NCBI GenBank assembly: GCA_020723855.1
Contig: DYIB01000012.1
Coordinates: forward strand, 1 to 48,413
Length of the DNA: 48,413 bases
Direction: 5' to 3'
From: Uliginosibacterium gangwonense
GTDB taxonomy: Bacteria; Pseudomonadota; Gammaproteobacteria; Burkholderiales; Rhodocyclaceae
Shown here in pieces: positions 31,159 through 45,843 of this stretch; position 1 is the stretch's first letter, and every line of letters starts with the position of its first letter. The notes beneath the pieces are model-generated. The model searched no databases. It saw only the letters and a list, made by a program, of their open reading frames with translations, and was not told the origin of the DNA. Made by a program: the position numbers and the translations under genes.

Positions 31159-32007
31159 CTACAGCACCGCGCTTTCCAGCGGGGCCGCGGCCCCGTAAGG
31201 CGGCGCGAAGGCATCGCAGAAGCCCGCAAGCTTGCGCCGCAGGCGCACCACCTCCCCCACGATGATCAGTGTCGGCGGGGCCAGCCTGGCATCGGCCGCC
31301 CGCTGCGGCAGGGTTCCCAGGGTTGCCGTCACCACCCGTTGGCGCGGTGTCGTGCCCTGCTGCACGATGGCCGCCGGCGTGGCTTCCGGCAGGCCATGGG
31401 CGGCCAGTTGACGGCACAGCTCGGGCAGGTGGTGCAGGCCCATGTAGATGACGATGGTCTGACCCGGGCGGGCGAGCGCCGGCCAGTCGAGATCGGCACT
31501 GCCGTCCTTGTGGTGGCCGGTGACCAGCACGCAGCTGTGGGCCCAGTCCCGGTGGGTGAGGGGGATGCCGGTGTAGGCCGCCACGCCCGCGGCGGCGGTG
31601 ATGCCGGGCACCACGGCGAAGGGCACGCCGGCCGCTGCCAGAGCTTCCGCTTCCTCGCCGCCGCGGCCGAAGATGTAGGGATCGCCGCCCTTCAGCCGCA
31701 CCACCTGCGTCCCCTGGCGCCCCAGCCGCACCAGCAGCCGGTTGATTTCTTCCTGGCCCAGGGCGTGGTGGCCGCGGCGCTTGCCGGCATAGATGCGCTG
31801 GGCTTCGGGCGGGGCCAGGGCGACGATCTCCGGCGCCACCAGCTGGTCGTAGACCACCACGTGCGCCTGCTGCAGCAGGCGGGCGGCGCGCAGGGTGAGC
31901 AGTTCCGGGTCGCCGGGACCGGCGCCCACCAGGGCGACAAATCCCCCGGCGCCTGCGGCGCCACCCCCTTTTTCAAAGGGGGTAGGGGGGCGTGATTGCA
32001 GCTTCAT
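31159..32007 (-). CDS. cobA: Uroporphyrinogen-III C-methyltransferase (SUMT)
   Basis: 282 residues from ATG 32007, overlapping dsrN by 4 nt (ATGA). The enzyme adds two SAM methyl groups to uroporphyrinogen III to give precorrin-2, the branch point to sirohaem. The motifs are [56 protein letters not shown] and [11 protein letters not shown]. It lacks the CysG dehydrogenase/chelatase half, so that step must be encoded elsewhere. Last in the dsr operon, it should feed sirohaem to DsrAB. Residues 7-23 ([17 protein letters not shown]) come from an inserted palindromic repeat. Confidence 0.94.
31939..31991. repeat. CCCCCTTTTTCAAAGGGGG-family repeat inside cobA
   Basis: AAATCCCCC opens the element, GGCGCC-TGC-GGCGCC follows, then CCCCCTTT-TTC-AAAGGGGG (31964-31982), an 8-bp perfect stem. 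The same AAATCCCCC...CCCCTTTTTCAAAGGGGG pattern recurs at 39978-40010 between dsrC and dsrM. It lies in frame within the 5' end of cobA and encodes a low-complexity leader. Confidence 0.7.
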
Positions 32008-33398
32008 AGGGTAGCGGCCAGCGCGCGCCGGCGCTCGCGGGCGCACTGGCGCACGAAGGCGACGAAGCGGGCGGTCCAGTCGTGGCCCACGGTGGAGCGC
32101 AGGTGGGTGTAGGAGGCCAGCACGTTGTGGTGGATGAGGCCGTCATGGCGGCCGTCGATGCCGTGGCCGCGCAGTACCCGGTAGGCGAAGCGCGGTTGCC
32201 CGTCCAGGTTCTCCAGGCTCGAGTAGTGGAACTCGTGGGCACGCACTTCCGCCCGCGTGGCCCCGGGCCAGGGATGCTCCGCCGTCTCCTGCAGGCGCAC
32301 CAGGCCACGGCCCACGGGCTTGTCGTGCATCACCGCGTCGCCGGCGATGGCGCCCACCATGGGGCGTGTGCGCCCTTGCCAGGTGAGGGAGCGGGTGAGA
32401 TACATGAGGCCGCCGCATTCGGCATAGACGGGCAGGCCCGCCTCCACGGCGCGGCGGATGTCGGCGCGCAGGCCGCGGTTGGCCTCCAGCTCATCCATGA
32501 AGCACTCGGGGAAGCCGCCGCCGATGAACAGACCGTCGCATTCCGGCAGGCGCTGGCGCAGGCTGTCGAAGAAGCGCAGCTCGGCGCCGGCGGCAGAGAG
32601 GAGCTCCAGGTCGTCCGGGTAGTAGAAGCCAAAGGCGGCGTCGCGGGGAATGGCGATGCGCACGGGTTTGCCCCTCACCCCGGCCCTCTCCCCGGTCGGC
32701 GGGCAGAGGGGAAGCGGCGCGGCCGTCAACTCCAGCAGGCGCGCCAGGTCGATGCGCTGGGCGACGATGCCGGCGATGGCGGCGATGCGGTCCTCGGCCA
32801 GGCGCGTCTCGTTGGCGGGCATCAGGCCCAGGTGGCGCTCCGTGATGATCATGCGCGGTTCGTCGGGGAGCATGCCCAGCACCGGCACGTCGGTGTAGCG
32901 CTCGATCACGGCGCGCAGCTTGGCCTCGTGGCGCGCGCCGCCGGTCTTGTTGAGGATCACGCCGGCGATGCGCAGCCCGCGCTCGAAGGCCTGGTAGCCC
33001 AGGATCAGCGGCGCCACGCCCCGGGTCATGCCCCGGGCATCGAGCACCAGGACCACCGGCAGGCCCAGCAGCCTGGCCAGCGCCGCGTTGCTGTCGGCGC
33101 CGTCCAGGGCCATGCCGTCGTGCAGGCCCTTGTTGCCTTCCACCAGGCACACGTCGGCGGCTGCGCCGTGGCGCGCGAACTGGGCGCGCAGCTCGTCGCC
33201 CGAGGACAGGTTGAAGTCCAGGTTGCGGCAGGGCCGGGCGGCGGCAGCGGACAGCCACAGGGGATCGATGTAATCCGGGCCTTTCTTGAAGGGCTGCACC
33301 GCCAGGCCGCGGGCGCGCAGCGCCGCCGCCAGGCCGATGCTGACCGTGGTCTTGCCCGAGGACTTGTGGGCGGCGGCGACCAGGAAGCGCGACGTCAT
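32004..33398 (-). CDS. dsrN: DsrN, sirohaem amidase (CobB/CbiA family)
   Basis: 464 residues, glutamine-dependent amidase related to cobyrinic acid a,c-diamide synthase. In the dsr context it is DsrN, which amidates sirohaem to the sirohaem-amide used by DsrAB. The N-terminal ATPase domain has a P-loop ([20 protein letters not shown]) and [13 protein letters not shown]. The C-terminal class I amidotransferase-like domain has the nucleophile Cys in [12 protein letters not shown] and the His in AHEFHYS. Between the two domains, near residues 229-244, a proline/arginine stretch ([18 protein letters not shown]) is encoded by a dispersed repeat. It overlaps dsrP and cobA by 4 nt each. Confidence 0.93.
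32671..32711. repeat. CCCTCACCCC/CCTCTCCCC-family repeat inside dsrN
   Basis: CCCCTCACCCCGGCCCTCTC begins the element and GAGGGG ends it, a degenerate palindrome of a very widespread dispersed repeat family (typical wording CCCTCACCCC...CCTCTCCC...GGGAGAGGG). It falls exactly at the linker between the ATPase and amidotransferase domains of DsrN and keeps the frame open. Confidence 0.65.
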
Positions 33399-34603
33399 TT
33401 GGCCTCCAGTGCATCGATGATTTTGTCATCGAGCCGCTCGGGCAGGATGCGCAGCACCCGCAGGCCTACCGCCACCAGCGCCAGGGCCAGCGCCGTGCCG
33501 CCCATTCCCAGCAGCACCTCCCAGGCGCTTGGGGCGTAGGGATGGATCTCGCCGTCGAAGAAACTGCTCGTCTCCTGCATGCCCGGAAACAGGGCCAGGG
33601 GATAGGCCTGGCCGCCGATGATGGTGACGTACATCTGGGCGAGTCCCCCGCCGACCACCAGCAGGCAGGCGGCCGCGATGGCGGCGCGCGAGCGCCCCAG
33701 GCGCGGATGGAACAGCAGGGCCAGGGGGATCAGCCCGCCGGCCGCCACCTGGCCGAGCCAGAACAGCGCGGTATACCGGCCGCCGTCCAGCAGGATGAAG
33801 CGCGTCACGCCGTCGTAGCGTGCCATGTAGAGCTTGGTGAGGTGGAACACGGCGACGAAGTACAGGGCGGCGGCGACGAAGATCGCCAGCAGGCGTGCCA
33901 GGCGCGCCAGCAGGGCGTCGCTCACGGGGCGCGCGTCCCAGCGGCTGGCGACTATCAGCACCAGCAGGAACAGGGCGGTGCCGTAGGCGAGCGACAGGAC
34001 GATGAACAGGGGCGCCAGCAGGGCCGAGTCGTAGGCCTCACGCGCCGCCAGGAAGCCGAAGATGGAGCCGGTACCGGTGGTCAGCAGCAGGCGCCAGACG
34101 AAGGCGGCCAGCCCCGCCGCCCTGGCGTGGCGCTGCAGGCGCCGCTCCAGCATGAGCCACAGGTAGGCGGCGACAATGGCGAAGAAGCCGGTGTAGAGGA
34201 AGACGTTGAGGGCGAAGATCGACTTGAAGTTGAAGTGGGTCATGGCCACCACCAGCCGGTCGGGGCGGCCCAGGTCCAGCATCAGCACCGCCAGGCCGCC
34301 CGCCAGCAGCGCCAGGGCGAGCAGGCCCGACAGGGGCGCCAGGGGCTTGTAGGCCGCCTTGCCGAACACCGAGGCGGTGGAGGCGACGTTGAGCGCCCCC
34401 GAGGCGGCGACGATCAGGAACACGGCGAACACGTGGGGCATGCCCCACACCACCTGGTTGTCCATGCCGGTGATGACATGGCCATGGTGCTCCATCTGCA
34501 GGAAGGCATAGGCGCCCAGGGCGATCAAGGCGCCCAGGGCGGCGAGCAGGCCGTAGTAGCGGCGGCTGGTGATGTTCCATTCGCGCAGGGTCACGGTGGC
34601 CAT
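33395..34603 (-). CDS. dsrP: DsrP, NrfD-family integral membrane quinone-interacting subunit
   Basis: 402 residues with about ten membrane helices (for example YGLLAALGALIALGAYAFL and VFAVFLIVAASGALNVAS). It belongs to the NrfD/PsrC family that exchanges electrons with the quinone pool. In DsrMKJOP it pairs with the ferredoxin subunit DsrO. It has no haem motifs. The start is 3 nt after the dsrO stop, and its stop overlaps dsrN by 4 nt. Confidence 0.94.
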   Translation of the reverse strand: MATVTLREWNITSRRYYGLLAALGALIALGAYAFLQMEHHGHVITGMDNQVVWGMPHVFAVFLIVAASGALNVASTASVFGKAAYKPLAPLSGLLALALLAGGLAVLMLDLGRPDRLVVAMTHFNFKSIFALNVFLYTGFFAIVAAYLWLMLERRLQRHARAAGLAAFVWRLLLTTGTGSIFGFLAAREAYDSALLAPLFIVLSLAYGTALFLLVLIVASRWDARPVSDALLARLARLLAIFVAAALYFVAVFHLTKLYMARYDGVTRFILLDGGRYTALFWLGQVAAGGLIPLALLFHPRLGRSRAAIAAACLLVVGGGLAQMYVTIIGGQAYPLALFPGMQETSSFFDGEIHPYAPSAWEVLLGMGGTALALALVAVGLRVLRILPERLDDKIIDALEAK

Positions 34604-34606
34604 GGC

Positions 34607-35332
34607 TCACAGTCCTTGATAGCGCACGCCCGGGTCCAGGCGCAGATCGGCGCGCACCTGGGCGGTCGCCACTTGGGCGATGCGCTGGGCGATCTCGGCT
34701 GCCGGGTCGTTCAGGTCGCCGAACAGCATGGCCTTGCGGCCGGTGGCGGCGCAGGCCTCGACGCAGGCGGGGAGTTCGTTCCGGTCGATGCGGTGCACGC
34801 ACAGGTGGCAGCCTTCCACGCAGCCCTGGCCGCGCGGCACCTCCGGGTTCTGGCCGGTGGTGGGCTCGTGCACGAAGGAGCGTGCCTTGTAGGGGCAGGC
34901 CATCATGCAGTAGCGGCAGCCGATGCAGATGTGGCGGTCCACCAGCACGATGCCGTCGGCGCGCTTGAAGGAGGCGCCGGTGGGGCATACGTCCACGCAG
35001 GGCGGTTTGGCGCAGTGCTGGCACATCATGGGCACCTGGCGCGCGCTGCCGCTGCGCATGTCCTTCACCGCCACTTTGCGGATCCACTGGGCATCGGTGC
35101 GGCGCAGCTCGCCCTGGGGCAGATGATTCTCTTTCCGGCAGGCGCTGAGGCAGGCATCGCAGTCGTCGCCGCAGCGGCTGGTGTCGATGAGCAGGCCCCA
35201 GCGCACCTTGCCCGAGGCGGGGGCATCAAGCGGCCGGGCGGCGGCCACCTGGATCAGGCGTATGCCCGGGGCAAGGGCGATGCCGGCCAGGGCCGCGGCG
35301 GAGAGTTCGAGGAAGCGGCGGCGGTCGGTCAT
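34607..35332 (-). CDS. dsrO: DsrO, periplasmic ferredoxin-type iron-sulfur subunit
   Basis: 241 residues from ATG 35332; the track ORF extends 84 codons upstream into dsrJ and is rejected. The N-terminus is a twin-arginine signal (TDRRRFLELSAAALAG), so it is exported folded. Several [4Fe-4S] motifs follow: CGDDCDACLSACRKEN, CQHCAKPPCVDVCPTGA, CIGCRYCMMACPYKAR and CVEGCHLCVHR. It passes electrons between DsrJ and DsrP. It overlaps dsrJ by 4 nt (ATGA). Confidence 0.94.
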   Translation of the reverse strand: MTDRRRFLELSAAALAGIALAPGIRLIQVAAARPLDAPASGKVRWGLLIDTSRCGDDCDACLSACRKENHLPQGELRRTDAQWIRKVAVKDMRSGSARQVPMMCQHCAKPPCVDVCPTGASFKRADGIVLVDRHICIGCRYCMMACPYKARSFVHEPTTGQNPEVPRGQGCVEGCHLCVHRIDRNELPACVEACAATGRKAMLFGDLNDPAAEIAQRIAQVATAQVRADLRLDPGVRYQGL

Positions 35333-35688
35333 GGCTTGGCCACCGGCTTGGGTTTGGCGGAATGGCATTCGAAGCAATCCAGCTCCACCGCCGCATAGCT
35401 GTGGCAGCTCTGGCAGAAGCCGTCCTGGCCCAGCACGCTGCCGCTCTTCTCTCCGGCGTGGCAGGCGACGCATTCGTTGAGGCTGTGCTCCCTGGTGCGG
35501 ATGCCCTGGCGCACGGTCTGGTCCCGCTGATGCTTGAGGAAGTCCATATGGCTGCGGCGCATGGTGTCCTTGTCGGCGACGCATTGGCCCGGCTTGGCGA
35601 TGACAATGCCGGGCCGCGGCACACCGGCCGCGGCGCCGGTCAACCAGGCCGCCATGAGCGCTGCAACGGCCAATGCCTTTGGTCTCAC
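35329..35688 (-). CDS. dsrJ: DsrJ, periplasmic trihaem cytochrome c
   Basis: 119 residues from GTG 35688, which overlaps the dsrL stop as GTGA; the 385-residue ORF in the track only extends this frame through dsrL. The N-terminus (MRPKALAVAALMAAWLTGAAA) is a signal anchor or signal peptide. Three c-type haem motifs are present: CVACH (73-77), CQSCH (92-96) and CFECH (105-109). Cys36 (PGQCV) is in the position of the unusual distal Cys haem ligand described for DsrJ of Allochromatium. Part of the DsrMKJOP complex. Confidence 0.94.
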   Translation of the reverse strand: MRPKALAVAALMAAWLTGAAAGVPRPGIVIAKPGQCVADKDTMRRSHMDFLKHQRDQTVRQGIRTREHSLNECVACHAGEKSGSVLGQDGFCQSCHSYAAVELDCFECHSAKPKPVAKP

Positions 35689-37637
35689 TCGCCCAGCCCC
35701 ATCTGGATGTAGCCGGTCGGGCACACGTCGTGGCAGATGTGGCAGCCGATGCAGCGGTCGTAGTCGGTGTAGACGTAGCGGCCGGTGGTGGCGTCCTTCT
35801 TGGGCATGCGCTTGACCGCCTGCTGCGGGCAGTACACCACGCAGTTGTCGCACTCGAAGCACAGGCCGCAGCTCATGCAGCGCTTGGCCTCCGCCACCAC
35901 GTCCGCTTCGCTCAGGGGCGCCACGCGCTCCTGGAAGTTGCCCAGGGCCTGCTCGGCGGTCAGGGTGATCACCCGGCGCCGGTGGCGCGGCGTGTATTGG
36001 AAGTGGCCCAGGAACAGCTCCTTGTGGGTGATGACATAGCGGTCGGAGCGGTTCTCGAAGTTGTGGACCGCCACGTTGGCGTCGCAGGTGCCGCGGATGG
36101 GCTCGTGGATGGGCTGGGGCGGCGTGCCCTTCTCCACCAGCTTCCTCTGCATGTCCCAGTGGTGCACGTCGATCCTGGGACGCTTGTCCTGGCCCTCGCC
36201 GCGCAGGTAGCGGTCGATGCCCTCGGCGGCGATCCAGCCGTGGCCGATGGCGGTGGTGAGCAGATGCGGCCGCACCACGTCGCCGCCGACGAAGACGCCG
36301 GGCTGGCCCAGCACCTGGTAATTGCGATCGGCGACGATGCCGCCCTTGCCCGAGTCGAATTCCTCCAGCCCGGAAAAATCCACTGCCTGGCCGATGGCGG
36401 AGACGATCAGGTCCGCCTCGAGATCCTGCTCGGTGCCCGCGATGACCTTGATCTCCAGCTTCGGTCCCACGAACTTCGCCTCGCACTGAGCCACGCGCAG
36501 GGCCGTGGCGCGGCCGTCGGCGCCGCGCACCACCGCCACCGGCGCCAGGCCGCCGCGGATGACGATGCCCTCGGCCAGGGCCTGCTCGATCTCGTGCCGG
36601 TTGGCCTGCATCTTGTCCACCGGGAAGACCGAGGTGAGGGTGACTTCCGCGCCCTGGCGCGCGGAGATCTGGGCGACGTCGTGGGCGGCGCGGCCGCCGA
36701 TGACGTTCTCCGGGCGGTCCTGGTCGCGGGCGTGCTCGATGTGGCCCAGGCGCCGCGCCACGGTGGCGACGTCGATGGAGGTGTCGCCGCCGCCCACCAC
36801 CACCACGCGCTTGCCCACTTGCTGCAGCCGTCCGTCGTTGAAGGCGCGCAGGAAGGCGGTGGCGGTGACCACGTTGGGCGCGTCGTTGCCGGGGCAGGGT
36901 AGGGCCCGGCCCGACTGGGCACCCAGGCCCATGAACACCGCGTCGAAATCGCGGCGAATGTCGTCCATCGCCACGTCGCGCCCCACGCGGCAGTTGAGGC
37001 GCGTCTTCACGCCCAGGTCGAGGATGCGCTGGATCTCGGCGTCGAGCACCCCGCGCGGCGTGCGGAAGCCGGGGATGCCGTAGCGCATCATGCCGCCCAA
37101 CTGCTCGTGCTCGTCGAAGATGGTGACCTCATGCCCTTTCAGGGCGAGCTGGTAGGCGCAGGACAGCCCGGCCGGGCCGCCGCCGATGACGGCCACCTTC
37201 CTGCCCGTGGTCGCTTGTGGCTTCTTGAAGGCGAGGTTGTGGGCGATGGCATACTCCCCCAGGAAGTGCTCCACTGCATTGATGCCCACATGGTCTTCCA
37301 CCTCGTTGCGGTTGCAGCCCGCCTCGCACGGCGCCGGGCACACCCGGCCCATGACGGCAGGGAAGGGATTGGCCTCGGTCAGCCGCCGCCAGGCGTACTC
37401 CTGCCAGGTCATCCCCGTGGGCGGCTTCTCGATGCCGCGCGCGATCTGCAGATAGCCGCGGATGTCCTCGCCCGAAGGGCAACTGCCCTGACAGGGCGGC
37501 GTGGACTGCACGTAGGTCGGGCACTTGTGGGAATGGCCGGCCTTGAAGATCACCTTGTTCCAGGCGGGCGGCCGGTGGTCCCCGTCCTTGTAGCGGCGGA
37601 AGGTGAGCCGGGTGTCGGGCTGTTCCGTGGCGGACAT
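35685..37637 (-). CDS. dsrL: DsrL, NAD(P)H-dependent iron-sulfur flavoprotein
   Basis: 650 residues, related to the small subunit of glutamate synthase. An N-terminal cysteine-rich domain (CPTYVQSTPPCQGSCPSGED, VCPAPCEAGCNR) precedes the FAD site VAVIGGGPAGLSCAYQL and the NAD(P) site VVVVGGGDTSIDVATVARR. The C-terminal part has two ferredoxin clusters (CMSCGLCFECDNCVVYCP, CIGCHICHDVCPTGY). In sulfur oxidisers DsrL takes electrons from DsrAB and reduces NAD(P)+; its presence marks an oxidative or disproportionating dsr system. It lies 10 nt after dsrK. Confidence 0.96.
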   Translation of the reverse strand: MSATEQPDTRLTFRRYKDGDHRPPAWNKVIFKAGHSHKCPTYVQSTPPCQGSCPSGEDIRGYLQIARGIEKPPTGMTWQEYAWRRLTEANPFPAVMGRVCPAPCEAGCNRNEVEDHVGINAVEHFLGEYAIAHNLAFKKPQATTGRKVAVIGGGPAGLSCAYQLALKGHEVTIFDEHEQLGGMMRYGIPGFRTPRGVLDAEIQRILDLGVKTRLNCRVGRDVAMDDIRRDFDAVFMGLGAQSGRALPCPGNDAPNVVTATAFLRAFNDGRLQQVGKRVVVVGGGDTSIDVATVARRLGHIEHARDQDRPENVIGGRAAHDVAQISARQGAEVTLTSVFPVDKMQANRHEIEQALAEGIVIRGGLAPVAVVRGADGRATALRVAQCEAKFVGPKLEIKVIAGTEQDLEADLIVSAIGQAVDFSGLEEFDSGKGGIVADRNYQVLGQPGVFVGGDVVRPHLLTTAIGHGWIAAEGIDRYLRGEGQDKRPRIDVHHWDMQRKLVEKGTPPQPIHEPIRGTCDANVAVHNFENRSDRYVITHKELFLGHFQYTPRHRRRVITLTAEQALGNFQERVAPLSEADVVAEAKRCMSCGLCFECDNCVVYCPQQAVKRMPKKDATTGRYVYTDYDRCIGCHICHDVCPTGYIQMGLGE

Positions 37638-37647
37638 CGTGTCTCCT

Positions 37648-39174
37648 CTATGCGCCCAGCCGGATGGCGGTGCTGACCAGTTGGTGCACGCCGCCGATCA
37701 TGCTGCGGTCGAAGTGGTAATAGGGCAGGACCTTGGTGAACTGGGCCTTGCAGATGGCGCAGATGGTGGCCATGAAGTTCACGCCGTCCGAGTCCGCCAC
37801 CTGCTTCAGCGCCTCCATGCGCGGGCTGGCGCCCTTGACGCGCAGCTCCAGCAGCTCGTCGGTGAGCAGTCCCCCGCCGCCGCCGCAGCAGAAGGTCTGC
37901 TCGTGGGTGGTGCCCGGCGCCATCTCCACGTAATGGTTGGCCACGGCGCGGATGATGGCGCGCGGAATCTCGAACTGGCCGCCGGGCGCATCGCCCATGC
38001 GCGAGCCCCGCGCCACGTTGCAGGAATCGTGGAAGGTGACGATGCGGTGGTCGTTCGCCTCTTTGTCGAACTTGAGGGCGCCGCGCCGGATCAGGTCGTA
38101 GGTGACCTCGCAGATGTGGGACGGCTGCTTGTAGCGCTGATCGAGCTGCTTCTGCAGTTGCAGCGCGAAGGGATCGTTGCCGCCGGCGCCGATGCCCGTC
38201 AGCGTGTTCCAGAAGCTGTAGGCCACCCGCCAGGCATGGCCGCATTCGCCCACGACGATGCGCTTCACGCCCAGCTCCAGGGCCGCCTCGCGCACGCGCA
38301 GGGCGATTCTCCGCAACTGGTCGTAGCTGCCGATGAACATGCCGAAGTTGCCCGCCTCGGAGGCTTTGGAGGACAGCGTCCAGCGGATGCCAGCGGCATG
38401 GAATACCTTGGCGTAGCCCACCAGGCTGTCCACGTGGGGCTCGGCGAAGAAATCGGCAGAGGGGGTGATCAGCAGCACCTCGGCGCCGGCCTCGTCCAGG
38501 GGCAGGCGCACATCCACGCCGGTGTCGGCCTTGATGTCCTCTTCCAGGCCCTCCAGGGTGTCGGCCAGGGCCGCGGGCGGCAGGCCCAGGTTGTTGCCGA
38601 CGCGGTGCACCTTGCCGATGATCTCGTTGGTGTACTTCTGCCCGTAGCCGACGGCGTCGAGGATTTCCTTGGCCGCCATGGTGATCTCGGCGGTATCGAT
38701 GCCGTAGGGGCAGAACAGGGAGCAGCGGCGGCACTCGGAGCACTGGTTGTAGTACTTGTACCAGTCTTCGAGCATGTCGCGCGTCAGATCCTTGGCGCCC
38801 ACCAGCTTGGGGAACAGCTTGCCGGCGGGGGTGAAATGGCGGCGATAGACGCTGCGCAGCAGATCCTGGCGCGCCACCGGCATGTTCTTGGGGTCGCCGG
38901 TGCCGAGGAAATAATGGCATTTGTCGGTGCACGCGCCGCAGTGCACGCAGGCGTCCAGATACACCTTGAGGGAGCGGTACTTTTGCAACAGCTCGCCCAG
39001 CTTGGCGACGGCGCGCTCTTCCCAGTCCGCCACCAGCTCGCCGGGGAAGCCCAGGGCCTCGTTCATGGGTGCGCTGGCGACATAGGGCTTGGCTGCCGCC
39101 ATGGCGTCCGCCTTGAGGATGGGGATGACCGGGTATTCCTTCAGCTCGGGGACGGCGAATTCGGGTGCGGCCAT
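37648..39174 (-). CDS. dsrK: DsrK, HdrD-like catalytic iron-sulfur subunit
   Basis: 508 residues from ATG 39174; the track adds 31 codons from the dsrM region. Two [4Fe-4S] motifs (CVHCGACTDKCHYF, CSECRRCSLFCPYG) precede CCG-type domains with VVGECGHAWR, FHDSCNVARG and TFCCGGGGGLL, the signature of heterodisulfide-reductase-like centres. DsrK is the cytoplasmic subunit of DsrMKJOP that reacts with the DsrC trisulfide or disulfide. It is 4 nt from dsrM. Confidence 0.96.
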   Translation of the reverse strand: MAAPEFAVPELKEYPVIPILKADAMAAAKPYVASAPMNEALGFPGELVADWEERAVAKLGELLQKYRSLKVYLDACVHCGACTDKCHYFLGTGDPKNMPVARQDLLRSVYRRHFTPAGKLFPKLVGAKDLTRDMLEDWYKYYNQCSECRRCSLFCPYGIDTAEITMAAKEILDAVGYGQKYTNEIIGKVHRVGNNLGLPPAALADTLEGLEEDIKADTGVDVRLPLDEAGAEVLLITPSADFFAEPHVDSLVGYAKVFHAAGIRWTLSSKASEAGNFGMFIGSYDQLRRIALRVREAALELGVKRIVVGECGHAWRVAYSFWNTLTGIGAGGNDPFALQLQKQLDQRYKQPSHICEVTYDLIRRGALKFDKEANDHRIVTFHDSCNVARGSRMGDAPGGQFEIPRAIIRAVANHYVEMAPGTTHEQTFCCGGGGGLLTDELLELRVKGASPRMEALKQVADSDGVNFMATICAICKAQFTKVLPYYHFDRSMIGGVHQLVSTAIRLGA

Positions 39175-39178
39175 GGAA

Positions 39179-39904
39179 TCAACTCTCCAGTTTCGCCGCC
39201 CAGGGCGCCAAGTGGCGCTTCTCGCGCGGGTCATCCACCTGGTTGCGCGTCGGGCTGAAGAACACACCCGGGGCGTGCAGCAGCTTGCTGAAGGGGAAGA
39301 CCGCCATCAGCAGCGCCACCAGGATCAGATGCAGGTAGAGCCCCGGATGGGCCGGCAGCGGCTGGATGTCGAAGCGCAGCAGGCCGAGGAAATAGGCCTT
39401 CACCGCCACCACGTCGGTGTGCATGAAGAACTTCATGCCCAGTCCCGTGGCGCCGATGCCCAGGAGCAGGGCCAGCATCAGGTGGTCCGAGGGCGTCGAG
39501 ATGTAGCGGATACGCTCCACCAGGAAGCGCCGCGCCCACAGGGCTGCAAGCGCCACCGCCATCGCCAGTCCGGCGTAGATGCCGAAGGGCTGCAGCCAGA
39601 TGACCGGCGCCCACACCGGCTCGGTGAAGTAGCGCAGATGGCGCGCGAGCACCAGCAGCAGCGCGCCGTGGAACAGGATGCCGAACAGCCAAAGCCACAG
39701 GTTGGAGCGGAACAGGCTCTCGAACAGGGCCACTTCCCGCAGCAGACGCAGCGCCACCCCGCCTCTGGTGGTGGGCGCCGGCGTGGTGGGGATCTTGAGC
39801 GGCGCCGGGGTGCGGGCGAAGTCGTAGATCTTGTATGCCAGGCCGCCCACCAGCAGCGCGGCGGCGGCGTAGAACAGGGCGGCGAAGGCGTAAGCGGATG
39901 TCAT
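39179..39904 (-). CDS. dsrM: DsrM, NarI-like membrane cytochrome b
   Basis: 241 residues with about six membrane helices, for example ALFYAAAALLVGGLAYKIYD and WLWLFGILFHGALLLVLARH. Histidines in LFHGALL, ARHLRYF, TPSDHLM and LYLHLIL are candidates for the haem b ligands of this NarI-like family. It anchors DsrK and exchanges electrons with quinone. A 130-nt gap filled with palindromic repeats separates it from dsrC, the largest gap in the operon. Confidence 0.94.
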   Translation of the reverse strand: MTSAYAFAALFYAAAALLVGGLAYKIYDFARTPAPLKIPTTPAPTTRGGVALRLLREVALFESLFRSNLWLWLFGILFHGALLLVLARHLRYFTEPVWAPVIWLQPFGIYAGLAMAVALAALWARRFLVERIRYISTPSDHLMLALLLGIGATGLGMKFFMHTDVVAVKAYFLGLLRFDIQPLPAHPGLYLHLILVALLMAVFPFSKLLHAPGVFFSPTRNQVDDPREKRHLAPWAAKLES

Positions 39905-39929
39905 GCTTGCGTAACCGCGGGCAGAAGGT

Positions 39930-40011
39930 TCCCTCCTTTTTTAAAGGAGGGACAGGGAGGATTTTTCGGCGCGATGGAAATCCCCCTTGTTTCCCCTTTT
40001 TCAAAGGGGGA
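39930..40011. repeat. Palindromic repeat cluster between dsrC and dsrM
   Basis: TCCCTCCTTT-TTT-AAAGGAGGGA (39930-39952) is a perfect 10-bp stem. AAATCCCCC (39978 onward) leads to CCCCTTT-TTC-AAAGGGG (39993-40009), a 7-bp stem of the same family as the element inside cobA. The rest of the gap (39905-40034) has no gene. On the operon transcript these hairpins would follow dsrC directly. Confidence 0.7.
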
Positions 40012-40034
40012 GACCTGCTGCAAGGGGCGGTGCC

Positions 40035-40367
40035 TCACACGCACCCCGTCGGCTTGGGCAGGCCGGCGATCTTGCACGCCTGCTTGGCCGGGCCGTAGGG
40101 GAACAGCTCGTACAGGTACTGACTGTTGCCCTTCTCCGGCCCCAGCTTCTTGCCGATGGCCTTGGTGAGCACGCGCACGGCCGGGGCGATCTGGAACTCG
40201 TTGTAGTAGTCGCGCAGGAAGTTCACCACCTCCCAGTGGTTGGGCGTCATCTCCACGTTTTCCTGCCTGGCGATGAAGTTCGCCACTTCCTCGCTCCAGT
40301 CGCCCAGATTGACCAGGTAGCCTTCCTCGTCGGTCTCGTAGGTCTTGCCGTTTACTTCTATTGCCAT
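40035..40367 (-). CDS. dsrC: DsrC, two-cysteine sulfur carrier
   Basis: 110 residues. This is a bona fide DsrC: the flexible C-terminal arm has both redox cysteines, Cys98 (QACKIAG) and the penultimate Cys109 (TGCV), 11 residues apart. The core shows GYLVNLGDWSEEVANFIA, HWEVVNFLRDYY and GPEKGNSQYLYELFP. DsrC carries sulfur between DsrEFH, DsrAB and DsrMKJOP. Strong hairpins after the gene could stabilise a dsrC-containing transcript. A cysteine-less homologue is encoded divergently at 44908. Confidence 0.97.
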   Translation of the reverse strand: MAIEVNGKTYETDEEGYLVNLGDWSEEVANFIARQENVEMTPNHWEVVNFLRDYYNEFQIAPAVRVLTKAIGKKLGPEKGNSQYLYELFPYGPAKQACKIAGLPKPTGCV

Positions 40368-40386
40368 GGGATGCCTCCGGAAAAAA

Positions 40387-40686
40387 TCAAAGCCAGGACT
40401 GGCAGCCCTTGTGCTCGGCCACCAGGTCCACGAAACCCGCGTAGTCCACCAGGCGCACGCCGTCGATGACCGAGCCGGCGATGCCGCGGGCTTCCAGGTC
40501 CGGCGTCAGGACGTAGATCTTGAATTTTCCCAGCGCCTGCTCCAGCCGTGCTGCGGCGGCGCTGCCGCGGGTGGCGGCGTAGACCGCGTCCTCGATGAGC
40601 AGGATGCTGCCGTCCGGCCGGGCGGTGGCCAGGCAGGAGTCCAGCGTCGTGCTCTGGAAGGGCGATTTGTTGACGATGTGCAGCAT
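40387..40686 (-). CDS. dsrH: DsrH, sulfurtransferase complex subunit
   Basis: 99 residues, TusB-like. With DsrE and DsrF it forms the alpha2-beta2-gamma2 complex that passes sulfur to DsrC. The N-terminus MLHIVNKSPF and the conserved Cys in LDSCLATA (residue 18) fit the family; ILLIEDAVYAA follows. It lies 10 nt after dsrF and 19 nt before dsrC. Confidence 0.94.
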   Translation of the reverse strand: MLHIVNKSPFQSTTLDSCLATARPDGSILLIEDAVYAATRGSAAAARLEQALGKFKIYVLTPDLEARGIAGSVIDGVRLVDYAGFVDLVAEHKGCQSWL

Positions 40687-40696
40687 ATCCCGACCC

Positions 40697-41068
40697 CTAG
40701 AATGAGAACACCACGTCCTGCTGTTCCATGAGCCGGCCGATCTCGGCCCGCTCCAGCACTTCCACCGGCACGCACAGGTCGTCCGCCGTGAGGCCGCGCG
40801 CCTGCAGGGCCTCGCGCTCCACGTAGAGCCTGGTGATGTCGTAGTCCTCCAGCGCCCGGTAGGTGGGCTGGAAGTTCTTCACTTCTATGCCCTTGGTCTG
40901 GTGGCCCTTCCTGAGCTGGTATACGCCGTCGTCCATGAACACCAGGCTCACGTCCTGATCGAAGGCGGCGGCGATCAGCACCACCTCCAGGGATTCCAGC
41001 GCGTAGATGGTGCCGTAGGGCGCCTTGCGGTTGACGTACATGAACTTCTTGATGGTCCCTTCGCTCAT
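40697..41068 (-). CDS. dsrF: DsrF, sulfurtransferase complex subunit
   Basis: 123 residues, TusC-like. It shows the DsrE/F fold start KKFMYVNRKAPYGTIYALE and the central VSLVFMDDGVYQLRKGH. It is the structural partner of DsrE in the DsrEFH hexamer. It lies 3 nt after dsrE. Confidence 0.95.
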   Translation of the reverse strand: MSEGTIKKFMYVNRKAPYGTIYALESLEVVLIAAAFDQDVSLVFMDDGVYQLRKGHQTKGIEVKNFQPTYRALEDYDITRLYVEREALQARGLTADDLCVPVEVLERAEIGRLMEQQDVVFSF

Positions 41069-41071
41069 GGC

Positions 41072-41431
41072 CTAGTCTCCGAACGTCACGGTGCGGTCCG
41101 CCTGGATGCCCGCCTCGATGAGCTGGCCCAGGCCCGAGATGCGGAAGCCGCTGGCCAGATTCTCCTCCCTGATGCCGCGGCGCAGCGCCGCGGCGACGCA
41201 CACCACCAGGTCCACGCCGTGCTCCTCGGCCAGCCTGGACCAGCGGTTCACGATGTGGCGGTCGTCCTGGGGCGGCTCGGTGAGGCGCGTGGCGTTGTTC
41301 ACGCCGTCGTGATAGAAGAACACGCGCACAATCTCGTGCCCCTTGGCCAGCGCCGCGCGGCAGAACAGATAGGCGCTGTCGGCGGCCTGGTGGGTGTAGG
41401 GGCCTTCGTTGACCAGAATGGCGAACTTCAT
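41072..41431 (-). CDS. dsrE: DsrE, catalytic sulfurtransferase subunit
   Basis: 119 residues, TusD-like. The persulfide-carrying Cys sits in DLVVCVAAALRRG (about residue 78), the expected active-site position. The N-terminus MKFAILVNEGPYTHQAAD and VFFYHDGVNNA are typical. It donates sulfur to DsrC. It lies 9 nt after dsrB. Confidence 0.96.
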   Translation of the reverse strand: MKFAILVNEGPYTHQAADSAYLFCRAALAKGHEIVRVFFYHDGVNNATRLTEPPQDDRHIVNRWSRLAEEHGVDLVVCVAAALRRGIREENLASGFRISGLGQLIEAGIQADRTVTFGD

Positions 41432-41440
41432 GGGGCGCCG

Positions 41441-42517
41441 TCAGAAGCGGATATGGACCGAGGCGTTGAGGTTGGCGCGACCGCCGCGCCAGTCGTCGAT
41501 CAGGTACTTGGTGAAGGTGAGCCCGGTCTTCTCGAAGAAGCGCGGCCAGCCGATGCGCTCGATCCAGTCGGCCATGCGCTCCCAGGGACGGGCGTCCTCC
41601 TTGTACACGTGCAGGATGCGCTTCACCACCCCGGCCACCTCGGGCCAGCGCGGCGGATTGTTGGGCAGCCCGGCGGCCACCATCTTCATGAACTGGGGCT
41701 TCAGGCGTGCGTTCGAATTCTTGCCGCCGACCCACACCGCCAGCTTGGAATGCTCGGGATCGTTGATCTGCATGGGCGGGCAGGGCGGGAAACAGGCGCC
41801 GCAGCACACGCACTTCTTCTCGTCCACTTCCAGCGAGGGCTTGCCGTTCACCAGGGCGGGGCGGATCGCCGCCACCGGGCAGCGCGCCACCACGGCGGGG
41901 CGCTCGCACACGTTGGCGACCAGGTCGTGGTTGATCTTGGGCGGCTTGGTGTGCTGGATGATCACGGCGATGTCCGCCTGGCCGCCGCAGTTGATCTCGC
42001 AGCAGGAGGTGGACAGGCGCACCCGGTTGGGCATCCGCTCGTGCTTGAACTCTTCGTAGAGCTCGTCCATCAGCGCCTTGACCACGCCCGAGGCGTCGGT
42101 GCCGGGAATGTCGCAGTGCAGCCAGCCCTGGGTGTGGGCGATCATGGACACGGAGTTGCCGGTGCCGCCCACGGGAAAGCCGTTCCTCTCCAGCTCGTCG
42201 ATCAGCGGCGCCACCTTCTTTTCATCCGCCACGATGAACTCGATGTTGGAGCGGATGGTGAAGCGCACATGGCCTTCCGCGAACCGGTCGGCGATGTCGC
42301 ACAGCTTGCGCACCGTGTGGATGTCCATCTGGCGCTGGGTGCCGGCGCGTACGGTCCACACCTCGTCGCCGCTGTGGGATACGTGGTGCAGGACGCCCGG
42401 GCGCGGGCGGTCGTGGTACTTCCAATTGCCATAGTTCCTGGCCAGCATCGGGTGCAGGTACTGCATGTGGTCCGGCACGCCGCATTCAATGGGTTTGCGC
42501 ATTTGCGGTTGCGACAT
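41441..42517 (-). CDS. dsrB: Reverse dissimilatory sulfite reductase beta subunit
   Basis: 358 residues. DsrAB oxidises DsrC-bound sulfur to sulfite. Sirohaem/iron-sulfur cysteines are in LSTSCCEINCGG, and a ferredoxin domain contains CVCCGACFPPCPP. The N-terminal region CGVPDHMQYLHPMLARNYGN is characteristic of DsrB. The presence of dsrE, dsrF, dsrH and dsrL in the operon places the pair in the oxidative group. It lies 24 nt after dsrA. Confidence 0.97.
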   Translation of the reverse strand: MSQPQMRKPIECGVPDHMQYLHPMLARNYGNWKYHDRPRPGVLHHVSHSGDEVWTVRAGTQRQMDIHTVRKLCDIADRFAEGHVRFTIRSNIEFIVADEKKVAPLIDELERNGFPVGGTGNSVSMIAHTQGWLHCDIPGTDASGVVKALMDELYEEFKHERMPNRVRLSTSCCEINCGGQADIAVIIQHTKPPKINHDLVANVCERPAVVARCPVAAIRPALVNGKPSLEVDEKKCVCCGACFPPCPPMQINDPEHSKLAVWVGGKNSNARLKPQFMKMVAAGLPNNPPRWPEVAGVVKRILHVYKEDARPWERMADWIERIGWPRFFEKTGLTFTKYLIDDWRGGRANLNASVHIRF

Positions 42518-42541
42518 GTTGGTCTCCGTGGTCGATTGGTA

Positions 42542-43834
42542 TCAGGCGGCGGACTTGGCCCTGATTCTCGCTACCTCCTCGTCCCAGCCGTCGGTGCGCA
42601 CATAGGGGTTGGTGCGCGGGGCGGAAACCATGTTCGGGTCTATTTCCAGTTCCACGCCTTCGAGGAAGTTCACCAGGCCGATGCGCTCGATCATCTCGCC
42701 GCAGCGCTCGTGCTCCAGGGCGTTCTCGGCGAAGAAATCCACGATGCGCTTGGCCAGATCCAGCAGCTTGTCGAAGTCCTCGTCGCTCTCCAGCTTCATG
42801 AAGGGCACCACCACCGTGCCCATGAGGTCGCCGATCTTCAGGGTGCGCTTGCCGCCCACCAGGATGGTGGCGCCGCGGTCCTTGCCCGGCGCCAGCGCCC
42901 CGGTCATGACGTTGATGCAGTGCATGCAGCGCACGCAGTCCTTGTTGTTGATCTCCAGGGCCTGGCTGTCATTGAGGGCCACGCTGCTCAGGTTCGGGCC
43001 GCTGCGTACATCCTTGATCTCCTTGAGCTGGATGGCCTTGGTGGGGCAGCGGTTCACCACGTCGTTCACCAGCTCGCTCAAGCCGTGCTTGGCGAACCAC
43101 TTCTTCGCCAGGGCCTCGTCCGTCTGCATGTTGTCGCGCCAAGTGCCGATGACGGCCATGTCGGAGCGCTGGATGGAGTTCATGCAGTCGTTGCCGCAGC
43201 CGGAGAACTTGAACTTGAACTTGTAGGGCAGGGCCGGGCGGTGGATGTCGTCCAGGAAGGCGTTGATGATCTTGCGATGGGCCTTGGCCTCGTCGTAACA
43301 GGACTGCTCGCAGCGGGCGTGGCCGACGCAGGACATGGAGGTGCGCACCGCCGGGCCGGCGCCGCCCAGGTCGAAGCCCAGGGCGTTGATCTCGTCGAAG
43401 GCCTTCTGCACGTTCTCCGTGGTGCAGCCCTGGAACATGATGTCGCCGCTCTGGCCGTGGAAGGCGATCAGCCCCGAGCCGTACTTCTCCCAGATGTCGC
43501 AGAACTTGCGCAGGATGTCGGTGGTGTAGTGCATGCCCGCGGGCGGCATGACGCGCAGGGTGTGGAACTCGGCGGCATCCTTGAACACTGGCTGGTCGTG
43601 CTCGTCCTTGATTTCCGTGAAGCGCGGGATGACGCCGCCGCCGTAGCCGAACACGCCCACGGTGCCGCCTTTCCAGTAGCCCTTGCGCGTCTGGTAGGAA
43701 TGCTCCAGGTGGCCCAGCAGATCCACCATGTAGTCCTTGTCCGCGGCGAGGCGCTTCAGGCCCGTGACGAAGCTGGGCCAGGGGCCGGCTTCCAACTGGT
43801 CGAGATTGGGCGTGTCGTGGGGCTTCTTGGCCAT
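42542..43834 (-). CDS. dsrA: Reverse dissimilatory sulfite reductase alpha subunit
   Basis: 430 residues. DsrA pairs with DsrB and binds sirohaem(amide) coupled to a [4Fe-4S] cluster: ligand region SMSCVGHARCEQSCYDEAKA and KFSGCGNDCMNSI. A ferredoxin insertion has CVRCMHCINVMTGAL. GGAG lies 9 nt before the ATG on the minus strand. It is the first gene of the dsr operon, transcribed away from the TusA/DsrC-like cassette. Confidence 0.97.
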   Translation of the reverse strand: MAKKPHDTPNLDQLEAGPWPSFVTGLKRLAADKDYMVDLLGHLEHSYQTRKGYWKGGTVGVFGYGGGVIPRFTEIKDEHDQPVFKDAAEFHTLRVMPPAGMHYTTDILRKFCDIWEKYGSGLIAFHGQSGDIMFQGCTTENVQKAFDEINALGFDLGGAGPAVRTSMSCVGHARCEQSCYDEAKAHRKIINAFLDDIHRPALPYKFKFKFSGCGNDCMNSIQRSDMAVIGTWRDNMQTDEALAKKWFAKHGLSELVNDVVNRCPTKAIQLKEIKDVRSGPNLSSVALNDSQALEINNKDCVRCMHCINVMTGALAPGKDRGATILVGGKRTLKIGDLMGTVVVPFMKLESDEDFDKLLDLAKRIVDFFAENALEHERCGEMIERIGLVNFLEGVELEIDPNMVSAPRTNPYVRTDGWDEEVARIRAKSAA

Positions 43835-44044
43835 GGGTGATGTCTCCGTGATTGGTCGGCCGCGTCCGGCGCGGGTCCGTTAGTTGCTGCTGATGCTACG
43901 CATGCTGCGCTGCGATCAGCCATCACCCGCGCAGGCTATCGCCGGCCCTCCGTGGGAGTAGGCGCCCCCTACCCGAAAGGGTTATGGGCTGCCACGCCAT
44001 GCCGGTGATAGGCGGAGCCGGTGGCGCCGTGCATATTGCCGCGC
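43835..44044. promoter_or_regulatory. Divergent control region between dsrA and the sulfur-carrier cassette
   Basis: 210 nt without a gene. It contains GTAGG-CGCCC-CCTAC (43958-43972), a 5-bp dyad set in GGGAGTAGG...CCTACCC. Overlapping it, TACCC-GAAAG-GGTTA (43970-43984) is a second imperfect dyad. Closer to dsrA, GCTGAT (43889-43894) and ATCAGC (43915-43920) form another. These are plausible operator sites. I found no clear sigma-70 promoter for either direction, which suggests activator-dependent transcription. Confidence 0.4.
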
Positions 44045-44293
44045 ATGAGCGTCGATCGCGACCCGGACGACAAGGAAGAGCTGGTCCGCCTGGACAAGTT
44101 CACGGCGCCCCTGTGGGGCCAGGACATCGAGCTGCTGCAGGTGGAGTACCGGTCGGGCGGCACGCCGCTGCTGCGCCTGCGCATCCGCGAGAAGAAGCGC
44201 TTCACCATCTTCGACATAGACGCCCAAACCGCCCGGCGCTGGGGCCAGGTCATGCTCGACTGGGCGCGGCGGCAGGAGAGCGGTGACGGGTGA
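44045..44293 (+). CDS. Small unknown protein of the dsr-linked cassette
   Basis: 82 residues from ATG 44045 (a GTG at 44021 is in frame but less likely). I do not recognise it with certainty; it resembles small uncharacterised betaproteobacterial proteins. There is no signal peptide or membrane helix. It is mostly charged, with VRLDKFTAPLWGQDIELLQV followed by a beta-rich core (LRLRIREKKRFTIFDID) and a helix AQTARRWGQVMLDWARR. The pattern of an ordered, conserved-looking fold argues it is real. The frame ends in a heptamer repeat (GESGDG tail), so its last residues may be repeat-derived. It is the first gene divergent from dsrA. Confidence 0.7.
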   Translation: MSVDRDPDDKEELVRLDKFTAPLWGQDIELLQVEYRSGGTPLLRLRIREKKRFTIFDIDAQTARRWGQVMLDWARRQESGDG

Positions 44294-44360
44294 CGAGTGA
44301 CGAGTGACGAGTGACAAAACCGAACCGCGCGAGCGCAAGCCGTCACCCGTCATCCGTCAC
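44283..44360. repeat. GTGACGA heptamer repeats with inverted partner
   Basis: GTGACGG-GTGACGA-GTGACGA-GTGACGA-GTGAC (44283-44315) is a tandem 7-bp repeat. GTCACCCGTCATCCGTCAC (44342-44360) is its inverted partner 26 nt later, so the region can fold into a long hairpin between the 82-residue gene and the TusA gene. Confidence 0.75.
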
Positions 44361-44376
44361 GATTCAAGGAGAAAAC

Positions 44377-44859
44377 ATGGCTAGCGACAAACCGACCGTC
44401 ACCCTGGACATGAGCGGCCTGTCGTGCCCGGCGCCGCTCCTGGGCGCCAAGAAGATCGTGGACGACATGCAGCCGGGCCAGACCATGCTGCTCGTCTCCG
44501 ACTGCCCCGGCACGTCGGACGACTTGTTCGCCTGGTCGCGCCACACCGGTAACGAAGTGACGGAGGTGCGCAAGATCGAAGGCAACCGCGTCGCCTACAC
44601 CATCCGCAAGGGCGGCGAAGCAGTGCGCCGCTCGGCCCACGCGGTGCTGGACATGCGCGGCGTCACCTGCCCCGGCCCCATCCTCGAAGCGAAGAAGCTG
44701 CTGGACGGCATGGCTGCCGGCGAGGTGCTGCTGCTCATCAGCAACTGTCCGGGCACGGCGGCGGACGTGGACGCCTGGGTGCGCGCCACGGCGCTCGAAC
44801 TCCTGTCGCGCGTGGCCATCGGGCCGAACGCTTATGAGTTCTACCTGCGCAAGAAATAG
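44377..44859 (+). CDS. Tandem double TusA-domain sulfur carrier
   Basis: 160 residues from ATG 44377, with AAGGAG 5 nt upstream; the track start at 44311 falls in the repeat. Two complete TusA/SirA domains are fused. Domain 1 (residues 9-80) has the sulfur-binding Cys17 in GLSCPAPLLGAKKIVDDM. Domain 2 (residues 90-160) has Cys98 in GVTCPGPILEAKKLLDGM. Each also has a second Cys in a parallel DCPGT or NCPGT loop. TusA proteins carry persulfide sulfur to DsrE-type partners. Most are single-domain, about 80 residues. Its position next to dsr suggests sulfur delivery to DsrEFH; which domain is active is unknown. Confidence 0.92.
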   Translation: MASDKPTVTLDMSGLSCPAPLLGAKKIVDDMQPGQTMLLVSDCPGTSDDLFAWSRHTGNEVTEVRKIEGNRVAYTIRKGGEAVRRSAHAVLDMRGVTCPGPILEAKKLLDGMAAGEVLLLISNCPGTAADVDAWVRATALELLSRVAIGPNAYEFYLRKK

Positions 44860-44873
44860 AGGGGGACGGAACG

Positions 44874-44900
44874 ATGGCACACGCCAAGGACGAGTACTGA
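44874..44900 (+). other. Eight-codon mini-ORF between the TusA and DsrC-like genes
   Basis: ATG GCA CAC ... TAC TGA encodes MAHAKDEY, preceded by GGGGGACGGA, a plausible ribosome-binding site. It ends 7 nt before the DsrC-like start. It may be a decayed gene start or a coupling leader; it could also be chance. Confidence 0.25.
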
Positions 44901-44907
44901 GGCCGGT

Positions 44908-45273
44908 ATGGGTGACGCCTATCGCGATACCGCCGCTCGCGTGGTGATGGTGAACGGCCGTGCCGTGCCCACCGATGCGGAAGGCTATCTCATCCATCCG
45001 GAGGACTGGTCCGAGGACTTCGCCCGGGCGCTGGCGCGCGAGGAGGGGCTCACGCTCACGGACGAGCACTGGCAGGTGATCCGCTTCATCCGCGACTATT
45101 ACCACGAACACCGGGTGCAGCCCCAGGTGCGGGTGATGATCAAGCACTTCGCCGCCCTGTGGGGGCCGGAGCGGGGCAACAACCACTACCTGCACGAGAT
45201 CTTCCCCCGCGGCGGCCCCCAGAAGCAGGGCAACCGGCTGGCGGGGGTGCTGCGCACCAAAGGGGAGCACTAG
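44908..45273 (+). CDS. DsrC-family protein lacking both cysteines (RspA-like)
   Basis: 121 residues. The DsrC/TusE fold is clear: GYLIHPEDWSEDFARALARE, HWQVIRFIRDYYHEHRVQPQ and GPERGNNHYLHEIFPRGGPQ align with DsrC encoded at 40035. The C-terminal arm ends QKQGNRLAGVLRTKGEH, where DsrC has QACKIAGLPKPTGCV. The upstream Cys is Gly and the penultimate Cys is Glu; there is no Cys anywhere in the protein. DsrC relatives without cysteines have been named RspA and proposed to be regulatory. It therefore cannot carry sulfur and may compete with or modulate DsrC binding. Confidence 0.88.
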   Translation: MGDAYRDTAARVVMVNGRAVPTDAEGYLIHPEDWSEDFARALAREEGLTLTDEHWQVIRFIRDYYHEHRVQPQVRVMIKHFAALWGPERGNNHYLHEIFPRGGPQKQGNRLAGVLRTKGEH

Positions 45274-45276
45274 CTA

Positions 45277-45843
45277 ATGGCCGTGCGCATCCGCAGCCGC
45301 TTCCATGCGGCGCAGCGCAGCCGCACCGCCGCGGAGCTCGCCAGCGTCGTCGCGCAGCTCGCCTGGAAGCTGGCCCGGGAGTCGATCCGGCGCATGCGCG
45401 AAGCGCAGTTCGACATCGATCCCGGGCCTGCCTATTTCGATTTCGTGTGCGAAGCCCTGGCCTTCCACGCCTTGGTCGCCGACCGCATCGCCTACCGGCA
45501 ACTGGCGCCGGCGCGGCGCGCGGAATTCACCCGCGCTCTTGCCCTGCGCCTGGCGGACCTGGTCGAGGACAACGCCGACATGCTTCTGGCCGAGCCGGCG
45601 CCGGGCACGTGCCGGCGCCGCTTCCTGGAGCTGTTCAACACTGCCGGGGAAGAGTACGGCGCCTACGGCTACGGCGCCGACGGGCCGGATTTCGGTTTCC
45701 GCCGCTGCTTCGCCGCGCGCCTGGGCCGGGTGCTGCCGGCCAAGGACCGGCCCTGGGTGCATGACCAGGCGATGGAGATCGAAGCGCCGACAGCGGTCGC
45801 GGCCATCGAGAAGACCCTGGCGGGGTTGTTGGCGCAACGCTAG
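45277..45843 (+). CDS. Unknown helical protein of the dsr-linked cassette
   Basis: 188 residues beginning 3 nt after the DsrC-like stop, so almost surely co-transcribed. I do not recognise a family. It is soluble and predicted mostly alpha-helical, with an Arg-rich N-terminus (MAVRIRSRFHAAQRSRTAAE) and segments such as FDFVCEALAFHALVADRIAY and LALRLADLVEDNADMLLAE. A Gly/Tyr-rich patch follows (GEEYGAYGYGADGPDFGF). The size and helical character recall chaperone-like or sensor helical bundles, but this is only an impression. Its stop interlocks with that of the GGDEF gene in CTAG. Confidence 0.8.
   Translation: MAVRIRSRFHAAQRSRTAAELASVVAQLAWKLARESIRRMREAQFDIDPGPAYFDFVCEALAFHALVADRIAYRQLAPARRAEFTRALALRLADLVEDNADMLLAEPAPGTCRRRFLELFNTAGEEYGAYGYGADGPDFGFRRCFAARLGRVLPAKDRPWVHDQAMEIEAPTAVAAIEKTLAGLLAQR

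Follow-up and report, generated by a model that had tools for sequence, protein, structure and literature searches.

The dsr operon of the window that we analysed (the whole 48,413-nt stretch of DNA) contains a 130-nt intercistronic gap (39905..40034, minus strand) between dsrC and dsrM, and it is rather probable that this gap holds a hairpin of the malE/puf type, which protects the 3' end of the upstream dsr mRNA with DsrC as the likely beneficiary. We propose that the soluble part of the dsr message ends at this hairpin. An RNase E-type endonuclease would cut the long transcript on the dsrM side, 3'-5' exonucleases would degrade the fragment as far as the hairpin, just past the dsrC stop, and stall there, and the upstream mRNA ending in dsrC would outlive the part that encodes the membrane complex, the outcome being that DsrC would be made in excess of DsrMKJOP. 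We infer this cleavage, the stalling of the exonucleases and the effect on protein ratio; the hairpin would thus probably allow a single message to yield DsrC in excess of the membrane complex.

The NCBIfam models assigned dsrA, dsrB, dsrE, dsrF, dsrH, dsrC, dsrM and dsrK in the window. The last gene before the gap is dsrC (40035..40367, minus strand; TIGR03342, 173 bits) and the first gene of the membrane-complex part is dsrM (39179..39904, minus strand), which scored 178 bits against NF038037, below the curated cut-off of that model (300), although its identity is hardly in doubt given where it lies and what its relatives are. As the first-pass annotation had claimed, the dsrC-dsrM gap is the only sizeable one found in the operon, the other measured gaps being 3-24 nt (A-B, 24; B-E, 9; E-F, 3; F-H, 10; H-C, 19; K-L, 10 nt). 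From the ORF coordinates and the reading of frames, L/J, J/O, O/P and P/N abut or overlap, and so do the dsrM and dsrK ORFs overlap. The dsrM ATG of the window has no nearby Shine-Dalgarno sequence, the sole GGAGG lying about 27 nt upstream, in the 3' arm of the hairpin (39905-39935).

Both palindromes previously noticed in the gap are present, namely CCCCTTTGAAAAAGGGG on the dsrC side (about 39993-40009, minus strand) and TCCCTCCTTTAAAAAAGGAGGGA on the dsrM side (39930-39952, minus strand). Their description as strong holds for the latter, which as RNA forms a 10-bp stem without U-tract (−15.1 kcal/mol; z −3.6), but not for the former, which is weak alone (z 0.5) because a C.A mismatch restricts its stem to 7 bp. 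The palindromes belong to two copies of a dispersed REP-like repeat, of which the dsrC-side unit (39978..40021, minus strand) matches a 160-bp genomic repeat at 78% and the dsrM-side unit (39921..39964, plus strand) is inverted relative to it. These 44-nt arms are 73% complementary, and both halves of the inverted doublet pair with each other to form a single 101-nt hairpin (39921..40021, minus strand; −48.1 kcal/mol, z −6.1), the fold energy of which was matched by none of 200 shuffles. The hairpin begins 13 nt past the dsrC stop and ends 16 nt short of the dsrM ATG, and the fold of the 161-nt gap region has a z of −5.0. An Rfam search of the gap gave nothing near threshold, the best match (20.8 bits versus the 42 required) lying on the opposite strand. 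The sense-strand tails 3' of the two palindromes (AAACAAGG and ACCTTCTG) are not U-tracts. An intrinsic terminator at this gap, i.e., a GC-rich stem followed by a U-run, was rejected from this lack of a U-tract after either hairpin and from a terminator scan that returned nothing in the window dsrC-dsrM gap. What the window does contain is a stable stem-loop without U-tract, situated between co-directional genes of one operon shortly past the upstream stop, as in the malE/puf type.

A hairpin at this position recurs in relatives. In 276 of the 283 dsrM loci taken from GTDB-type collections, dsrC is the gene immediately upstream and the median gap is 94.5 nt; in a set of 77 loci plus the window, the dsrC-dsrM gap has a median of 80 nt, versus 0-48 nt between the other neighbouring genes. 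When the loci were dereplicated at 85% DsrM identity, 173 were left. Their stems were scored explicitly, because shuffled-energy z-scores are too blunt (GC runs survive dinucleotide shuffling); perfect stems had to score at least 22 within 100 nt of the stop, and a looser version allowed G.U or one mismatch. Perfect stems were found after dsrC in 35.8% of the 173 loci (1.4% in shuffles), after dsrH in 2.6%, after dsrF in 2.0% and after dsrE in 0%, while the looser version placed a hairpin in 110 of the 173 dsrC-dsrM gaps (64%) versus about 12 expected by shuffling. Dereplication at 75, 70 and 65% gave 77/111, 47/68 and 21/32 for the dsrC-dsrM gaps, and 6/98, 4/58 and 0/28 for the H-C gaps. In the control made of same-strand gaps of 40-400 nt from the genome of the window itself (the window and a further 400 kb, with genes from a crude ORF caller), a hairpin occurred in 27 of 95 (28%). 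The hairpins start at a median of 16 nt past the dsrC stop and are shifted toward dsrC within the gap (relative midpoint 0.36 versus 0.48 in shuffles, p = 4.6e-5). Only eight of the 110 are followed by at least five T in the next 8 nt, the other 102 having no U-tract; as a class, they are therefore not intrinsic terminators. To cite individual loci, Marichromatium gracile DSM 203 (L109) has a 10-bp stem (CCGGGGCGGG/CCCGCCCCGG) 9 nt past the dsrC stop, and two Thiodiazotropha loci of the sample (L129 and L133) carry a hairpin.

This distribution has limits. None of the 11 gaps shorter than 40 nt, among them Gallionella-type loci, carries a hairpin, and about one third of the lineages lack a strong simple stem, which implies that the hairpin is not essential. 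Furthermore, other dsr gaps of at least 40 nt often bear hairpins too (A-B, 13/26; B-E, 6/13), and the signal is therefore partly a general property of long operon gaps. What sets the dsrC-dsrM gap apart is that in most lineages it is both long and structured; it is not the only place where this occurs. The dsrA-dsrB gap hairpins (L066, L076, L086, L112, L116, L129 and others) may constitute a second stability boundary.

Two lines of evidence suggest that what is selected is the structure at this position, not its sequence. First, knowing that G.T and A.C mismatches in stems should be equally common if the DNA palindrome alone mattered, we counted them on the dsr mRNA strand using a stem score blind to mismatch type. 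There were 39 G.U and 13 A.C mismatches, versus a ratio of 46:54 in composition-matched shuffles (p = 3.5e-5), and this excess of G.U over A.C therefore argues that selection acts on the RNA, and on the mRNA strand. The structure thus appears to be selected at the RNA level across the relatives taken together. Second, the gap sequences change within genera and the structure persists. Loci sharing at least 88% DsrM identity have gaps of several unrelated kinds; in one genus (g2), these are a stem (CCGGATGCGG), a type that has a U-tract (GATTGGGGTAGGCGCCGGC) and two repeats (ATCAGG and CGTCATTCC). In the CCAGCGCCGA group, the stems stay paired despite sequence change. Of the nine gaps in g10, the nearest genus, eight have a different palindromic repeat, also as an inverted doublet, with the same architecture as in the window; the doublet of L149 and L150 is opposite in orientation to that of L144-L147, L151 and L152, and has therefore been inverted or inserted twice between species of one genus. 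The structure would be supplied here by the inverted doublet of a dispersed palindromic repeat; in relatives, other repeats or unrelated stems would take its place. Clustering of the hairpins at the chosen, strict threshold found no two sequences alike, but the resulting 110 families do not stand for 110 origins, since the stems within some genera are clearly homologous. A formal covariation count on one stem group was abandoned, the quality of the MAFFT alignment being too low. Eight loci (L092, L101, L104, L141, L202, L238, L244 and L249) have a conserved block near GCCGTGGTGCACCGTCC directly 5' of dsrM, and CGCCAGCGCCGANTTT after the stem.

We considered that the hairpin might instead act by partial transcription attenuation, i.e., by pausing RNA polymerase, or that the untranslated gap might permit Rho-dependent termination, fewer transcripts reaching dsrM in either case. 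Attenuation would yield the same expression step, and about 95 nt are untranslated after dsrC in most lineages. In addition, seven loci of genus g2 (L068, L085, L158, L169, L233, L234 and L236) share a conserved, terminator-like stem mostly followed by CUCUUUUU or a similar U-run. We nevertheless regard this explanation as unlikely, given the absence of a U-tract from the window and from 102 of the 110 hairpins, and the empty terminator scan of the gap. Of the two roles that the first-pass annotation had offered, protection of the upstream mRNA end is accordingly the better half, as it concerns an element conserved in position and apparently selected as RNA, whereas loss of read-through by intrinsic termination finds neither a U-tract nor a terminator hit. 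The seven g2 loci have in common the order GATTGGGGTAGGCGCCGGC..TCCTCCTTG..GCCGGCGCCTCTTTTT, an arrangement that resembles either a terminator or a so far undescribed RNA motif.

Just as unlikely is a neutral insertion, in which the doublet of the window would be one of many mobile-looking repeat copies sitting without function in a tolerated gap. The repeat is indeed dispersed in this genome and patchy in relatives, and nothing in its sequence distinguishes the copy of the gap. Against neutrality, 64% of the dereplicated loci have a hairpin at the same position with unrelated sequences, the nearest genus has other palindromic repeats at the same spot, and the mismatches favour pairing of the mRNA; these arguments concern the position, not strictly the copy of the window. 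Finally, it is very improbable that the gap is a spacer for translation or regulation (an internal dsrM promoter or leader) in which the hairpin is incidental or tunes dsrM initiation: conserved blocks such as GCCGTGGTGCACCGTCC do occur just before dsrM in some Rhodocyclaceae and the window dsrM lacks a Shine-Dalgarno sequence near its ATG, but the hairpins lie toward dsrC, away from the dsrM start, and a search for sigma-70-like promoters, the only type covered, found none in 32000-45500.

Published expression data from relatives bear on the protection of the upstream message. In Allochromatium vinosum, the dsrEFH and dsrC transcripts are above that of dsrA (PMC3397948). The dsrC gene of this organism has its own extra promoter, as stated in PMC11267869, which alone could explain a high dsrC message. 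In one comparison of pyrite with control, dsrC changed least among the listed dsr genes, and dsrE/F and the membrane-complex genes all fell (PMC11267869), so that there is no simple two-block pattern. In Ca. Thiodiazotropha endolucinida, the TPM values are 23,149 for dsrC, 2,369 for dsrH and 1,472 for dsrE, and dsrM is absent from the shared top list (PMC13137333), the gene identities being inferred from peg numbers and the TPM of short genes being noisy. Taken as they stand, these data fit a dsrC message exceeding those of its neighbours, with stability and promoter effects unseparated. The first-pass annotation had proposed an excess of all of DsrABEFHC over DsrMKLJOP; the published evidence speaks chiefly for DsrC, and for DsrEFH relative to DsrA.

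Control of the proposed type is known from other operons; for the dsr operon, we found no earlier description of it. In Rhodobacter, the hairpin between pufBA and pufLMX sets the ratio of light-harvesting complex to reaction centre. Its deletion alters segmental mRNA stability, according to Klug (1987) as cited in PMC6238624. Both cases involve an intercistronic hairpin within a bioenergetic operon, but dsr pits a sulfur carrier against a membrane complex, and the deletion evidence concerns puf. The REP element between malE and malF of Escherichia coli is similar in being a palindromic repeat placed on one transcript between a soluble, highly needed gene and genes for a membrane complex, and in forming, directly 3' of the upstream gene, a hairpin that lacks a U-tract. 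It differs in that RNA stabilisation is proven in E. coli and proposed in dsr, and in that it belongs to another repeat family, whereas many lineages have the dsr structure, built from sequences that are unrelated. In the differential decay of E. coli operons, 26 of 34 upstream-stabilised gene pairs end at a U-tract-free hairpin (PMC5927463). In the cip-cel operon of Clostridium cellulolyticum, intergenic stem-loops set subunit stoichiometry and change in evolution (PMC4423207); selective RNA processing and stabilisation by such stem-loops is the likeness to dsr, and the difference is that they are orthologous across Clostridium species, whereas most dsr ones have no recognisable sequence kinship. 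The search for an earlier account of a dsr intercistronic hairpin is a weak negative, the main dsr papers not being covered by it.

In the Dsr pathway, DsrC serves as the co-substrate that carries the sulfur. For its excess over the membrane complex that recycles it, an extra dsrC promoter is the sole cause that we found cited. A hairpin kept in position across many lineages with its sequence swapped offers a clean, testable answer. There is an even chance, in our estimate, that the dsr operons of sulfur-oxidising Proteobacteria have in common an RNA element defined by its position, i.e., an exonuclease-stop hairpin after dsrC the sequence of which has been repeatedly replaced, partly by captured palindromic mobile repeats. 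Genomic parasites would thereby have turned into interchangeable stoichiometry parts, exerting an operon-wide control of the DsrC-to-DsrMKJOP dosage that would have gone unnoticed because no sequence is conserved. Screens for sequence conservation would overlook the dsrC hairpin, which would be a natural example of REP-type repeats reused for the same job in several lineages.

The repeat of the window consists roughly of GCAGCAGGT, then a CCCYCYTTT/AAAGRGGGG stem, then ACAGGGRGGATTT. Its core pattern, CCCCTTTNNNNAAAGGGG, has 21 matches per strand in the genome versus 1 for the reversed control, related places of the unit occur on several contigs, and the sequence-divergent copies retain paired stems, as expected for REP-like elements. 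In other genomes its occurrence is patchy: most have none, whereas the forward matches number 18 in G072 (a species of the nearest genus), 13 in G057, 19 in G1055 and 14 in G1081. In several genomes, doublets lie about 75-80 nt apart. Short dispersed palindromes, often as inverted doublets, together with the presence of Y1 transposase genes in the genome, liken the family to REP, BIME and REPIN elements; it differs in that mobilisation is putative here, and in that we could identify the unit with no described REP class. One of the three Y1 transposase genes (C29:8898-9101), which matches the domain model in part, is separated by 25 bp from a copy of the related 160-bp repeat, and the two others have no such copy nearby. 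This 160-bp repeat (contigs C70, C57, C27, C65, C16, C102, C100, C95, C89, C86, C9 and C3 of G000; L036-L048), which carries the same hairpin units as the gap with their tails pointing outward, occurs as 13 near-identical full copies and as partial ones, the latter mostly at contig ends. The contig-end matches were considered as ends of a larger insertion sequence, an idea that was dropped, as they look like assembly breaks inside the repeat. One copy is intragenic: the palindrome in cobA (31964..31982, plus strand) does belong to the same family as that of the gap, as had been suggested, and it occupies N-terminal codons of the cobA frame ahead of the methyltransferase domain. The cobA ATG overlaps the dsrN stop, and the repeat may have given rise to an N-terminal extension there, or else the start may be wrong.
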